Assembly (NCBI RefSeq): GCF_003259185.1
Contig: NZ_QGMP01000001.1
Coordinates: forward strand, 744,001 to 808,000
Reading direction: 5' to 3'
Length of the DNA stretch: 64,000 nucleotides
DNA from: Isoalcanivorax indicus
Lineage (GTDB): Bacteria; Pseudomonadota; Gammaproteobacteria; Pseudomonadales; Alcanivoracaceae
In this document: piece by piece, positions 10,778-20,257 of the stretch
How positions within the stretch are numbered: the stretch's first letter is position 1
Layout: each line of letters begins with the position of its first letter
Notes under the pieces: model-generated
Seen by the model: only the letters and a program-made list of their open reading frames with translations
The model's database searches: none
Told to the model about the DNA's origin: nothing
Position numbers and translations under genes: made by a program

Positions 10778-11212
10778 ATGAAAATGGCCAATCCCTATCT
10801 CAACTTCAAGGGCACCACTGAGGCCGCTTTTGAACATTACCGCCGCATCTTCGGTGGCGAATTTACCGCGGTGTTGCGTTACGGCGATTTCCCCGGCAAC
10901 CCGATGGGCGCGCCTGAGGACAAGCTGGACGCCATCGCCCATATCGGATTACCGCTGGGCGGCGACAACGTGCTGATGGGCACGGATGTGATCAGTGCCG
11001 AACACACCGGGGGCTTTGTTGCGGGCAACAACTTCTTCATTGCGCTGGAAGCCGATTCCGAGGATGAGGCGCGTCGCGTTCATGCTGCGCTGGCGGAGGG
11101 CGGCGAGGTCACCATGCCGTTGCAGAGCACCGAGTGGGCACAGTTGTTCGGCATCTGCGTGGATGCGTTCGGTATTCAGTGGATGGTGAGCTTTACGGGT
11201 GATGTGGGTTGA
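10778..11212 (+). CDS. VOC-family protein, PhnB/3-demethylubiquinone-methyltransferase-like
   Basis: A 144-residue single vicinal-oxygen-chelate domain of the PhnB-like subgroup: NPYLNFKGTTEAAFEHYRRIFGGEF at the N-terminus (quoted here as its recognisable spacing) and FGICVDAFGIQWMV at the C-terminus. Members are small cytosolic proteins of mostly unknown chemistry, some related to glyoxalases, and the name PhnB does not prove a role in phosphonate use. A good ribosome-binding site (AAGGA) precedes the ATG. It stands alone and ends 28 bp before the first copy of the inverted-repeat element. Confidence 0.8.
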   Translation: MKMANPYLNFKGTTEAAFEHYRRIFGGEFTAVLRYGDFPGNPMGAPEDKLDAIAHIGLPLGGDNVLMGTDVISAEHTGGFVAGNNFFIALEADSEDEARRVHAALAEGGEVTMPLQSTEWAQLFGICVDAFGIQWMVSFTGDVG

Positions 11213-11240: not shown

Positions 11241-11353
11241 GGCCTCGGTGAGGGGCAAGCCCTTCCAGAAGCCGCCGTGAATACGTCCCTGTAGGCTTGC
11301 GTTCGGCTTCCTGCCTCACACACTTCTGGAAGGGCTTGCCCCTCACCGAGGCC
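11241..11353. repeat. Structured inverted-repeat element, copy 1
   Basis: Two perfect 31-bp arms (11241-11271 and 11323-11353, starting GGCCTCGGTGAGG and ending CCTCACCGAGGCC) enclose a 51-nt core. The core is about 40/46 identical to that of copy 2 at 18585-18705 and holds a short stem TAC (11282-11284) / GTA (11291-11293) around GTCCCT. The element lies between convergent genes, 28 bp past the VOC stop. It lacks an obvious T-run and has no coding capacity. It could be a bidirectional terminator, a structured transcript 3' end, or a miniature mobile element; I cannot name a family. Confidence 0.85.
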
Positions 11354-11509
11354 TCAGTTCAGTGCCAACGACACGAACACCACTTCGTAGCGTGTCGCCA
11401 GAACCAGACTTTCGGTTGGCTGGAGGTTCTTGACCGGGCTGCGCGTGACGGCCCCCCGAGGGCCATGCCACCACAACCAGAAAGAATGGCCCCCAACCGG
11501 CAACAAAGG

Positions 11510-12379
11510 TCAGAGCGCGCGAATCTCACCACTGAGGTGCGGCTTGACGCCATCTGCGGCCAGCAGGCGAAAATCCAGCCCCGAGCCCTGTTTCTCTTGC
11601 GCGAACTTTACCGTCGCCGGAATGAACATCGGCAACTTGAACTGCACGTCCACACTGAAACCGTTCTCCGGCAACTGATCGTTGACCTCCGCCAGGCAGC
11701 GCGCCTTGGACCACATGCCGTGCACGATCTGGCGCTTGAAGCCGAACAGCTTCGCGGTCAGCGGGTACAGATGAATCGGATTGCGATCACCGGATACCGC
11801 GCCGTACTGCCGGCCCATGCTGCCCGGGACCTTCCATTCGGTGGCATTTGTCACCGGCTCGGCGGCCGCCGGCTTCTTGCCGCCCTTGTCCTCACCCGTG
11901 CCGCCGCCCCGGCGGAACATGGTGGATTCGCTTTCCCAGACCAGCTCGCCGCCGGTGCTGATGTGCGTCAGGATCGAGAATTCGTAGCCCTTGGCCACCC
12001 GCGTGAGCTCGCCGAAACGGCATTCCACATCCAGCTGCTCGCGCTCCTGGATTCGGCGGTACTGAGTGATACGGTTGCGCACATGGACCAGACCCATGGC
12101 CGCGAACGGGAAGTCCTTGTCCAGCAGCAGACTCATGAACAGCGGGTGCGCATGCAGGTGCGGATAGGTCACCGGCAGGTAGCCGTCGGCCTTGAAACCG
12201 CATACCTTGCGATAGGTGGCCAGATGTTTCGCGTCGAGCATGATATCGCTCAGGCGTACGCCCTTGTTCGGCAGTACCGGGTTCTTGCCGGGTTTGACGC
12301 CGGCACGCACGACGGCCTTGGCAAACAGGGGCAGCATGGCAGGTGCGTTGCGCAGTTCGCGAATTTCTGTGGCACTCAT
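11510..12379 (-). CDS. MaoC-type hot-dog dehydratase/hydratase
   Basis: A 289-residue double hot-dog-like protein. The C-terminal half has the MaoC/R-hydratase signature AVSGDRNPIHLYPLTAKLFG (about residues 195-215) with Asp and His in the hydratase positions, followed by IVHGMW. Family members hydrate enoyl-CoA or enoyl-ACP, so a role in lipid or alkane-derived fatty-acid metabolism is likely. The start at 12379 follows AAGGA. It is monocistronic here but belongs functionally with the FabG-type reductase and thiolase near 27-30 kb. The minus-strand frame continues 51 codons beyond the TGA without another stop, which I take as chance. Confidence 0.83.
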   Translation of the reverse strand: MSATEIRELRNAPAMLPLFAKAVVRAGVKPGKNPVLPNKGVRLSDIMLDAKHLATYRKVCGFKADGYLPVTYPHLHAHPLFMSLLLDKDFPFAAMGLVHVRNRITQYRRIQEREQLDVECRFGELTRVAKGYEFSILTHISTGGELVWESESTMFRRGGGTGEDKGGKKPAAAEPVTNATEWKVPGSMGRQYGAVSGDRNPIHLYPLTAKLFGFKRQIVHGMWSKARCLAEVNDQLPENGFSVDVQFKLPMFIPATVKFAQEKQGSGLDFRLLAADGVKPHLSGEIRAL

Positions 12380-17547: not shown

Positions 17548-18549
17548 ATGGCAGAACTTACCGACTCCGGGGTATTGCTGCGCATGGCCTACAAGGGCAT
17601 GCAGTCCGCCGGTATAGATGCCGATGCGGTGCTACAGAAGGTCGGTCTGAATGCCTCGGTAATGGGCCAGCCAGACCTGCGCACCCCCCATGACGCCCAG
17701 GAATGGTTCTGGCAGGCCGCCGAAGAAGTCTCCGGTGACCCCCATGTCGGCCTGCACCTCGGCGACCACATCCCTATCTTCAAGGGCCAGGTGCTCGAAT
17801 ACCTGTTCCTCAGCAGCCCCACCTTTGGCGATGGCCTGAAGCGGGCCCTCAACTATCAGCGATTGCTCTCCGATGCCGCCCAGGGCGAGCTTGAGGAAGA
17901 CGAGGACACGGTGCTGCTCAAGCAGATGTTCTGGAGCCGTCGACTGCACCACTTCAATGAGTGCGGCATGGTCGGGGTCATCAAGTTCTTCCGCTTCGTC
18001 ACCGATGGCGCGTTCGAGCCCTTGCAGATCAGCTTCAAGCATTCCGCCCACGCAGACATGCAGGAATACCAGCGAGTGTTCGGCTGCCCGATCCTGTTCG
18101 ACCAGGCGCATACGGGGCTGCGTTTCGCCAAAGAGGTCATGACGTTGCCCTCGGCGCACCATGAGCCGGAGCTGCTGCGTCTGCATGAGCAGTTGGCGAT
18201 CGAGCAGGTGGCGCGGCTGGAGAAACAGGATCTGGTGGCGCAGGTCAATCGTCTGATCGCGGAGCTGCTGGAATCCGGGCATGCCAATCTGGAGGACGTG
18301 GCAGCGCGTCTGGGCATCAAGCCGCGGCAGCTGCGTACGCGCCTGGCGGATGCGGGGACCAACTTCAATCAACTGGTGGCGGATTACCGGTGCCGTCTGG
18401 CGAAGCGCCTGCTCGGCGGTACGGACGAGTCCATCGACGAGATTGTCTATCTGACCGGCTTTTCGGAGCCGAGTACCTTCTATCGTGCGTTCAAGCGTTG
18501 GGTGGGGATGACGCCCATCGAGTATCGCAAGGCCAAAAGCGACGAGTGA
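17548..18549 (+). CDS. AraC-family transcriptional regulator
   Basis: A 333-residue regulator with an N-terminal effector-sensing domain of the arabinose-binding-like type (about residues 20-205) and a C-terminal double helix-turn-helix (about 230-330; conserved ESIDEIVYLTGFSEPSTFYR and GMTPIEYR). This OruR/GbuR-like subgroup is abundant in Pseudomonas and Alcanivorax and often controls adjacent catabolic genes, but no neighbour is an obvious target. It follows desB by about 90 bp on the same strand and ends 35 bp before copy 2 of the inverted-repeat element. Confidence 0.87.
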   Translation: MAELTDSGVLLRMAYKGMQSAGIDADAVLQKVGLNASVMGQPDLRTPHDAQEWFWQAAEEVSGDPHVGLHLGDHIPIFKGQVLEYLFLSSPTFGDGLKRALNYQRLLSDAAQGELEEDEDTVLLKQMFWSRRLHHFNECGMVGVIKFFRFVTDGAFEPLQISFKHSAHADMQEYQRVFGCPILFDQAHTGLRFAKEVMTLPSAHHEPELLRLHEQLAIEQVARLEKQDLVAQVNRLIAELLESGHANLEDVAARLGIKPRQLRTRLADAGTNFNQLVADYRCRLAKRLLGGTDESIDEIVYLTGFSEPSTFYRAFKRWVGMTPIEYRKAKSDE

Positions 18550-18584
18550 TGATTGTCCGGGTAGGGGACTGCCTGGGTGGTAAT

Positions 18585-18705
18585 GGCCCTCGGGGGAGCG
18601 GGTAAAGGGTTTCAGGACACGCCGTGAACCCGTCCCTGGGGGCTTGCGTTCGGCATCCATGCCTCTCGACAGTCCTGAAACCCTTTACCCGCTCCCCCGA
18701 GGGCC
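18585..18705. repeat. Structured inverted-repeat element, copy 2
   Basis: Two perfect 34-bp arms (18585-18618 and 18672-18705, starting GGCCCTCGGGGGAGC) enclose a 53-nt core. The core shares about 40 of 46 aligned bases with copy 1 (11241-11353) and lies in the same orientation. The short core stem reads CCC (18629-18631) / GGG (18638-18640) here, against TAC/GTA in copy 1. A second stem, GGCAT-CC-ATGCC, follows. It sits between convergent genes, seven bases from the stop of the gene at 18713, and could end both transcripts. Confidence 0.87.
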
Positions 18706-18712
18706 GTCACGT

Positions 18713-20257
18713 TTAGTGCTTTTTCCGGCGGAACAGCAATACCATCCCGAATAACCCGAAGACAAAGCCGATGCTGCCTGTAGAGCGGTTCAGCGGGCCT
18801 GTGGGCGGCACAAAAGGTGCCTCTACGCGGGTGTAAGTGGCGCTGCGTACTGCGGACTCGGCGTCATCGAGTACGGCGATGGCGCGCACTTCCGTGGTGT
18901 CGGTGAGGGTGATGGTGTCGCCGGGCAGCAGTGACAGGCTGGTCTGGTCCGGGTTGCTGCCGTCCAGGGTGTAGAACAGGGTGCTGCCTTCAGGTCCGTT
19001 CAGGGTGATCACCAGCTGGGCGCTGGAGAACTCCTGGGAGGGTGGGTTGAAGGTGGGTGCCGGGACGGTGGCCACCAGGTTGACGTCATCCAGATACAGG
19101 GTGCGGGCGAAAGGACCGGGGACGTTGCCTTCGGGGCTGCTGCGGTCGCGCGCGCGCAGGCTCAGGCGGGCGGAGCCGATACCGGCGAGCGCGGCGGCTT
19201 CGCGGCTGTCGTTCGTGGTGAAGGTCAGCCATTGGCCGCTGTCGCCGTTGACGCTGAAGTCCTGCTCCAGATTCAGGGCGCTGTCGGCGGCGTCGGTGCA
19301 GGCGTTGTCGGTGAAAAACGCCAGATTGACACGCAGGTTGAGGTCGTCATCGGGGGTCAGGCTCATGGCGCGGACGCTGGGGCGCAGGGTGTCATCGCCG
19401 GTGACGGGGACGCACTGGTCCAGGCGACTGGCGCCGAAGTTGCCGGTCAGGCTTTCGAAGTAAAAGACATTATTGCCGCTTTGCGCAAAGCTGACAGCGC
19501 CCGCCGCAGCACGCAGACCCGCATCACGCTCGACATACCAGCCGCTGCCGGCGTTCAGGAAATCGCCGTCCACAACATCCAGATGCTCGAAGCTGCCGTT
19601 GCGAATCAGGTTGGCCTGACTCTCGCCCTGGGTGGCACGCACGTTGTCGAAAAAGACCCCGGCGTTCTGGCCACTGCGATCGCGTGCACGCAGGGAGATA
19701 CGCAGTACGCGTGCCTCTTCGGGCAGGTCGCTGGCGGCGAAGACCACCGGGGTGGTATCGACCCAGGTATTGGCGTCGATGCTGAGTTGCAGGTCGATGT
19801 CTTCGTTGGAACGCGCAAAGCTGAGGCGATTGCTGTTGGCGTCTGCTTGCAGGTTTTCCTCGCAGGCGACCATGTCCGGATAGAAGTTCGGATTCAGGCG
19901 GCTGCGGACGTCGCTGCTTGAGACGCTGGTGCGTACGGCATAACGCAAACTCAGGGACTGGTCCGGATCGATGGGCAGACACTGCTCCAGTTTGTTGCTG
20001 CCGAAGCCATCGTCGAGCGTGTTAAAGCCGAAAGCGCTGTCGCCCTGGGCGCCAAAGCCGGCGCCGGTGCGAATCAGGCCACCGGTGGGGGTCAGCAGGG
20101 TCCAGGAGGGCAGGAAGCCGATGCCGCCGTCAGTGGCGTAATCGATGTCACCGATACCGCGTTGGTCGAGATCGGAAAAGTCACCGTTGTCGAGGGCCTG
20201 AGCCGTCCAGGGCAACAGCAGGGCGGCCACGGCCGCCATCGTGATGGATGCTTTCAT
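18713..20257 (-). CDS. Secreted surface protein with CHB_HEX_C-like domain and C-terminal sorting-like tail
   Basis: A 514-residue exported protein. It has a signal peptide ending near AQA, two related beta-rich domains (about residues 23-210 and 215-395, both with an EQC/DQC motif and an RDRS segment near their ends), then a chitobiase/hexosaminidase C-terminal-like Ig domain (LFYTLDGSNPDQTS), and finally a hydrophobic segment followed by RRKKH. The tail (GSIGFVFGLFGMVLLF plus basic end) resembles CTERM-type sorting signals, though not a canonical one. No catalytic residues are recognised; adhesion or polysaccharide binding is a guess. GAGGAG precedes the ATG. It lies ten bases downstream of the porin gene on the same strand and may be cotranscribed with it. 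Confidence 0.75.
   Translation of the reverse strand: MKASITMAAVAALLLPWTAQALDNGDFSDLDQRGIGDIDYATDGGIGFLPSWTLLTPTGGLIRTGAGFGAQGDSAFGFNTLDDGFGSNKLEQCLPIDPDQSLSLRYAVRTSVSSSDVRSRLNPNFYPDMVACEENLQADANSNRLSFARSNEDIDLQLSIDANTWVDTTPVVFAASDLPEEARVLRISLRARDRSGQNAGVFFDNVRATQGESQANLIRNGSFEHLDVVDGDFLNAGSGWYVERDAGLRAAAGAVSFAQSGNNVFYFESLTGNFGASRLDQCVPVTGDDTLRPSVRAMSLTPDDDLNLRVNLAFFTDNACTDAADSALNLEQDFSVNGDSGQWLTFTTNDSREAAALAGIGSARLSLRARDRSSPEGNVPGPFARTLYLDDVNLVATVPAPTFNPPSQEFSSAQLVITLNGPEGSTLFYTLDGSNPDQTSLSLLPGDTITLTDTTEVRAIAVLDDAESAVRSATYTRVEAPFVPPTGPLNRSTGSIGFVFGLFGMVLLFRRKKH

Follow-up and report, generated by a model that had tools for sequence, protein, structure and literature searches.

The small repeat YPAL sits close downstream of genes. 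In Yersinia it corresponds to RU-2 (PMC2759123). The published description is of a mobile repeat that has filled and empty sites, duplicates 3–26 bp of its target and has its targets at or adjoining dyad symmetry; according to the same description, YPAL is co-expressed with upstream genes and perhaps affects transcript stability (PMC2229807). Long inverted repeats around a core, with a tail-to-tail bias, are described for the intergenic repeats of Pseudomonas fluorescens (PMC2718517), which the element reported here resembles in both respects. With YPAL/RU-2 our element shares the core of one strand (the GGA strand, named after its loops), including the hairpin loops AAGGAT and ATGGAT and the TTTACGGCGT tail, as well as the position between genes and the presence of dozens of copies, whereas its arms are different, it forms inverted composites of two sub-types (A and B), and it occurs in genera distant from Enterobacterales.

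The sponge RNAs CsrB and RsmX/Y/Z are each encoded by one gene, which has a promoter and a terminator of its own. They resemble the element in carrying several GGA hairpins per RNA, but here we are dealing with dozens of two-site copies, with no recognisable promoter in the two that were scanned. In its finer form, the CsrA-type loop reads C-ANGGAN-G. A(N)GGA is the typical CsrA motif (PMC5864184), CsrA motifs are generally paired because CsrA is a dimer (PMC4333381), and CsrA/RsmA has a strong preference for RUACARGGAUGU when it lies in the loop of a short hairpin (PMC7937890). The closest RNA architecture is that of TwoAYGGAY RNA (RF01731), in which, as in our element, two GGA-loop hairpins lie within a less conserved outer stem and for which CsrA binding is proposed; the difference is that its description there is not of a dispersed repeat with covarying long arms (PMC4333381). 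In the literature searched, we found no paper joining YPAL and CsrA, and none naming a CsrA-binding repeat family.

Two hairpin elements of the window and their family

The window, i.e., the whole stretch of 64,000 nucleotides analysed, contains two copies of the element, whose GGA strand is opposite to the printed one:

11241..11353, GGA strand minus: copy 1, hairpin element of type A, with arms at 11241–11271 and 11323–11353
11282..11293, minus: 3'-proximal CsrA-like hairpin of copy 1 (in the direction of the GGA strand), UAC-AGGGAC-GUA (from sequence, stem covariation and loops)
11305..11315, minus: second CsrA-like hairpin of copy 1, 5' on the GGA strand, GGC-AGGAA-GCC, with a type A loop one base shorter (from sequence, alignment and loops)
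11354..11442, no strand: middle region of the A–B composite at copy 1 (from comparison with other composites)
11443..11489, no strand: collapsed type B site beside copy 1 (from comparison with intact composites)
18585..18705, GGA strand minus: copy 2, type B-like hairpin element, with perfect arms at 18585–18618 and 18672–18705
18629..18640, minus: CsrA-like hairpin of copy 2, CCC-AGGGAC-GGG (from sequence, covariation and loops)
18652..18663, minus: second CsrA-like hairpin of copy 2, GGC-AUGGAU-GCC (from sequence, alignment and loops)

The sequence-only reading had reported perfect inverted arms of 31 and 34 bp around a core shared in the same orientation, and both points were reproduced when re-measured. 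The arms of copy 1 are 31 nt each and 100% complementary; those of copy 2 extend to 39 nt (18580–18618 and 18672–18710) with 95% complementarity, the inner 34 being perfect. The core pattern of 34 positions (4 of them free) fits both copies on the same strand with 0 mismatches, and their covariance-model scores are 96.5 bits (copy 1, C1:755256–755338) and 108 bits (copy 2, C1:762603–762687). Folding of both strands of both copies gave z values of -9.4 to -11.7. Copy 1 is an A–B composite: matches run through its middle region in other copies, with identity up to 91%, and at its B site the flanks are retained and the hairpin has collapsed to GGCCCCCCGAGGGCC (11450–11464), a 15 bp palindrome.

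Only two copies had been claimed initially, with a proposal to search by covariance model. This search, with a model made from 47 copies of the same genome, revealed a multi-copy intergenic element with a conserved core, far above two copies: 82 matches at E<=0.01 were obtained in the 3.44 Mb genome, 67 of them with E<1e-18. The core pattern with <=3 mismatches has 66 matches in the genome vs 3 for the reversed control. Chance origin of the core was ruled out, with 0 pattern matches in 100 shuffles set against the 82 genome copies. About 80 further copies, the sub-types A and B, often arranged as an inverted pair, and the collapsed B site are details that the earlier reading did not contain. 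Contig ends of the assembly (G000) fall in or beside copies (C2:1–43, C3:92–174, C6:73–155, and C6:12397–12481 of 12518); the repeat thus probably interrupts the assembly, so that the genome may hold more copies than were counted.

Besides the two main sub-types, some intermediate copies occur. Many sites represent an inverted composite of two hairpins, roughly 330–470 bp long as estimated from a set of copies, and in the doublets of this genome the GGA strands face outwards in 25 of 25 cases. The core is better conserved than the arms, whose sequence differs between copies of the genome by a mean of 34% over the inner 26 bp, although within copies the arms have only 18 mismatches in 1769 positions (counted over 56 rows, including one cut-off copy and one core-deleted copy). 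In the 47 copies, 99.7% of cells are paired, both partners vary in 15 of the 22 pairs, and the covariation score reaches 0.618 vs 0.172 for shuffled and <=0.160 for slid data; wider model-found sets gave 0.913 vs 0.203 and 1.027 vs 0.233.

Some copies depart from this anatomy. The L001 composite has an extra insert between A and B, which is bounded by GTAGGCTGGGCTGAGC and GCCCAGCCTAC and is probably a REP-like repeat in its own right, and a similar arrangement is seen in L017. One A copy (L030:1501–1525) is devoid of the 5' GGA hairpin of the core, its 29 bp arms being still perfect, and the related genome G020 (L076 on contig C1, matches 591 to 1811) carries six tandem copies about 227 bp apart.

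A literature search with core 12–13-mers led to YPAL, and a 9-mer yielded nothing useful. When YPAL was aligned with the window copies and with distant copies, the whole core proved to be shared: of the 28 columns that are invariant across 7 rows, 27 belong to the core, among them those of both GGA loops and of ACGGCG. The sequence-only reading knew of no named family; the core is the same as that of YPAL/RU-2, and we have little doubt that both window hairpins are copies of a YPAL-like dispersed element. Membership in an Rfam family was rejected, because the weak matches, to microRNA models and to a Yersinia sRNA, scored below gathering in every case; eight element loci at E<=1 gave no RF01731 match, and the whole window at gathering gave only a tRNA. 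A REP/RAYT origin was rejected as well: the sole Y1_Tnp match in the genome has no element copy in its 3.3 kb locus, the nearest element match being about 22 kb away from this gene.

Gene setting, gap histories and spread

Both window copies were described earlier as lying in convergent gaps, 7 to about 160 bp from the stops, and our measurements agree. A glyoxalase-family gene (10778–11212, plus strand) stops 28 nt from copy 1, and a MaoC-like gene (11510–12379, minus) stops 156 nt from it; for copy 2, the corresponding distances are 35 nt for an AraC-type regulator gene (17548–18549, plus) and 7 nt for a minus-strand gene (18713–20257) with Fn3_assoc and CHB_HEX_C_1 matches. Among the 18 window gaps of >=100 bp, 2 are convergent, and these are exactly the two element gaps. 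At the genome level, the convergent location proved to be common and not exclusive: both neighbours were called in 50 of the 54 site rows (among them L295:5362, a pattern match without model support; L283 yielded no match to the pattern), giving 24 convergent, 22 tandem and 4 divergent sites, and at least one gene 3' end faces the element in 46 of the 50. The named loci, among the matches listed, gave 30 convergent, 50 tandem and 6 divergent sites plus 36 at edges; all gaps of >=100 bp in these loci comprise 52 convergent, 179 tandem and 65 divergent ones.

The orientation of the GGA strand relative to neighbouring genes is random. With respect to tandem genes it is sense in 23 and antisense in 27 cases (named loci among the matches listed; rough gene calls, the caller used having concurred with better calls at 35 of 45 sites), and single copies in tandem gaps of this genome are divided into 6 sense and 6 antisense. 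Counts from a cruder gene caller (22 sense, 35 antisense) were dropped because its concordance reached only 29 of 49 sites.

Simple scans detected no T-tract terminator at either window copy and no promoter, other promoter types being outside their reach. Since the T-tract is absent, the window copies are not intrinsic terminators by this criterion, which speaks against the terminator idea put forward in the sequence-only reading. A sponge gene of the CsrB/RsmZ type, having its own promoter and intrinsic terminator, was rejected for both copies on the basis of these simple scans.

Comparison with related species demonstrates that the elements turn over fast at fixed gaps. The copy 1 gap, which holds A and the collapsed B here, contains two B-like elements in G036 and short plain hairpins in G037 and G033. 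After the regulator gene adjoining copy 2, a short hairpin is found in G037 (L255), its loop region GCATCCATGC being one ATGGAT loop on the other strand, and the other five species have a different neighbour (the match stops with the regulator) and hairpins with T-tracts. In a third gap (C1:733 kb), four species have different elements; a separate T-tract terminator stem is complete here (G000) and in G036, and its first half is visible in the stretches of G037 and G033 that were compared. No clean empty site was detected among the gaps compared across related species. The short G037 hairpins of the copy 2 regulator gap (L255) and of the copy 1 gap (L250) look otherwise unrelated to the element but likewise have an ATGGA(T) loop on one strand; at convergent sites, GGA-loop hairpins may be more widespread than the YPAL-like family.

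Of the 46 genomes searched in the family, 20 gave matches, and these represent 3 of 8 genera (own genome counted). The element is dispensable: no match was obtained in 3 of the 7 members of the same genus or in any of the 17 sampled members of one sister genus. In the class sample it occurs in 45 of 274 genomes and 40 of 222 genera (own genome counted), and in the phylum sample, for which the class make-up of the 398 genomes is not given, in 32 (own genome again counted), all of the same class. Samples of more than 40 genomes were searched with stricter filters, so that these counts of spread are lower bounds. The earlier impression that similar hairpins exist in related gammaproteobacteria is borne out by exact core matches, among those listed, in records of Marinobacter, Microbulbifer, Halopseudomonas, Stenotrophomonas, Methylotuvimicrobium, Ectothiorhodospira and Shewanella, and the spread is wider than supposed. 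Three genomes of one genus from the same order have 28, 46 and 7 matches at E<=0.1, which represent a longer-stemmed version with GGA in both loops.

Three exact core matches within 8 kb were encountered in a MAG titled Klebsiella pneumoniae (L188, CAMDWI010000036.1), which may be a mislabelled or mixed bin. A phage search gave no match for window copy 2, nor for a copy from one same-order genome. A plasmid search gave no match for window copy 1 and one partial match, outside its core, for the same-order copy. The YPAL query matched 17 enterobacterial plasmid records (e.g., NZ_CP067312.1:71643–71735), of which 14 are predicted to be conjugative.

The GGA strand and its paired loops

A new feature suggested by the sequence is that the GGA strand would fold into two hairpins, most of whose loops fit A(N)GGA, the motif of CsrA/RsmA sites. 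When copies were selected by core sequence alone, the arms were seen to contain, among the matches listed, 148 wobble pairs possible on the GGA strand only vs 36 on the other strand only. This count covers 98 copies out of the 120 found by pattern, since 22 were excluded for poor arms (score <10), and in these 98 good-arm copies 2346 of 2627 positions are Watson–Crick pairs and 97 are other mismatches; the arm finder handles both wobble kinds alike. Per locus, again among the matches listed, wobble leans to the GGA strand in 63 cases and to the other in 5, with 30 ties; the tallies take in related, non-independent genomes, for which statistical significance is a guide only. In this genome alone, 10 wobble pairs belong to the GGA strand vs 3 to the other. 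Because of the bias of 148 vs 36, the GGA-strand fold is the one conserved, and the view that it is the functional one is well supported and, in our opinion, highly probable.

This bias was also divided by gene setting. Among the matches listed, the ratio of GGA-strand to other-strand wobble is 27:4 for sense copies, 18:3 for antisense, 46:10 for convergent, 4:4 for divergent and 53:15 for unclassified ones. Since the antisense copies keep the bias, a dock on the neighbour's mRNA alone is insufficient; the main result against a plain 3'-UTR role is that the GGA fold is kept even at copies whose GGA strand would be absent from the transcript of the adjacent gene.

Of the 101 rows in the model-found sets A2 and A3, 99 were scored, and 98 of these have an ANGGAN loop in the 3' hairpin, the first free position being G, T, A or C and the last T, C, G or A; both sets were found with a model made from set A1 and hence lean to its loops and structure. 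The A1 rows themselves are no evidence for this loop because the pattern used to find them already specified it (as C-NTCCNT-G on the opposite strand). The loop script demands a C–G closing pair in the 3' hairpin, a pair that is seen in all distinct rows (47, 77 and 21), and the stems of this hairpin covary, e.g., CCC/GGG, TAC/GTA and TCC/GGA. For the 5' hairpin, A(N)GGA was revealed in 128 of the 146 rows scored out of 148 (A1, A2 and A3), and 9 of the misses represent a competing fold picked by the loop script. Named loci were picked by the exact pattern, with the TAC/GTA stem fixed too, so that only the arms and the 5' hairpin are free evidence in them; the best loop of this hairpin, which is free in the search pattern, contains GGA in 104 of 121 copies among the matches listed. 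A first scan of the pattern loci, with A(N)GGA in 47 of 121, was too low because the loop A is often shifted into the stem. The distance between the two GGAs is 23 nt in 85 and 24 nt in 16 of the 113 copies with an upstream GGA, among the matches listed.

The element thus has A(N)GGA in short-hairpin loops and in pairs, as is typical of CsrA-type sites, and the hairpin 11282–11293 with its preceding base matches RUACARGGAUGU at 10 of 12 positions. The csrA gene is present once in the genome. Among the matches listed for the class sample, it occurs in 41 of 45 element-bearing genomes vs 194 of 229 without the element, and the association is weak because of this frequency in element-free genomes; csrA is not among the matches listed for element-bearing G053 (75% complete), G114 (88%), G145 (67%) and G241 (98%). 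The pull-down with RsmA, RsmE and RsmI of P. putida is described as yielding intergenic regions near or resembling ISPpu8 sites, including a "long palindromic region" downstream of PP_3547, whose identity with the present element is not implied (PMC7937890). For Alcanivorax dieselolei, the account of sRNA candidates from dRNA-seq and of an intergenic scan for CsrA-type RNAs names CsrR1 and CsrR2 and no repeat (PMC9788540), which may weigh against a CsrA dock, the strain being one that may or may not carry the element. The specific loop match, pairing, spacing and one indirect experiment lead us to suppose that the element RNA probably binds CsrA/RsmA, an opinion held with moderate confidence.

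Proposed role and competing explanations

Slightly more cautiously, we favour an overall explanation in which a YPAL-like small mobile repeat is combined with a GGA-strand RNA acting as a two-site CsrA/RsmA dock. One can suggest that the 3' ends of gammaproteobacterial genes are where such a repeat settles and that its conserved product would be the GGA-strand RNA with a long arm helix, free in sequence, with pairing kept. This helix would present a pair of small hairpins whose loops are either C-[ANGGAN]-G or AGGAN, the shorter form, and whose GGAs are 23–24 nt apart, and the paired hairpins would form a two-site dock for one CsrA/RsmA dimer. A transcribed copy may tie CsrA to the RNA end or guard that end against decay, or the copies may jointly titrate CsrA. 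The sequence comparisons demonstrate the family and its copy number, the covariation, the strand asymmetry, the loop consensus with its spacing, and the kinship to YPAL; transcription, CsrA binding, any effect on mRNA and mobility are what we infer here from sequence data.

The chief rival, which is compatible with CsrA binding, is a mobility signal on the GGA strand: the mobilising machinery would read the GGA-strand hairpins as single-stranded DNA or RNA, with the loops as recognition sites, and the location at gene ends would be merely the least harmful place. G·T is better tolerated than A·C in DNA hairpins, which counts for such a signal, and the signal agrees with the wobble bias being independent of gene orientation, with the random orientation itself, and with the patchy presence inside one genus. 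The target duplications and filled/empty sites of YPAL (PMC2229807), the mostly conjugative plasmid records bearing its relatives in enterobacteria, and the explanation of the tail-to-tail repeats of P. fluorescens by a "least worst" location (PMC2718517) point in the same direction. However, the mobility signal leaves unexplained why both loops match the CsrA site, including its two free positions, and the search for a mobilising enzyme gave a single Y1 transposase match, whose locus has no element; we consider this explanation rather unlikely, and the dock preferable.

Alternatively, the arms might be a two-sided 3'-end hairpin, a terminator or decay barrier on both strands, with the core as a passenger. 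The prevalence of convergent (24 of 50) over divergent (4) sites fits this role, as do the 18 of 24 convergent element gaps without another T-tract terminator (simple scan), the other hairpins or ordinary terminators occupying same-gene gaps in sister species, and the co-expression of YPAL with upstream genes, perhaps with an effect on stability (PMC2229807). Nevertheless, such a hairpin predicts no strand bias of wobble, contrary to the one observed among the matches listed; the core is more conserved than the arms, the T-tract is absent at the window copies, and in one gap of G000 and G036 a separate terminator stands beside the element, all of which makes this alternative improbable. A palindrome that acts purely as DNA and owes its perfection to hairpin-templated repair would suit the near-perfect arms of divergent sequence and the collapse visible at 11450–11464, but it is weakened by the strand asymmetry of the wobble pairs, as well as by the conserved loops and covarying short core stems, and is very hard to credit.

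Returning to the CsrA/RsmA dock, we may extend it, tentatively and with less confidence than the dock itself, to a broader scheme: mobile repeats across Gammaproteobacteria would carry paired CsrA/RsmA docks to dozens of gene ends in each genome, representing a dispersed, fast-evolving sponge or tether layer for the Csr/Rsm system, and the element may in addition rely on CsrA to be expressed or to spread. CsrA/RsmA is a global regulator, and its known antagonists are a few dedicated RNAs. If the scheme is true, tens of mobile two-site copies per genome would rewire Csr networks, and the effective CsrA level would vary among species. Repeats long seen as neutral or as terminators, such as YPAL and its relatives, would then gain a concrete biochemical partner.
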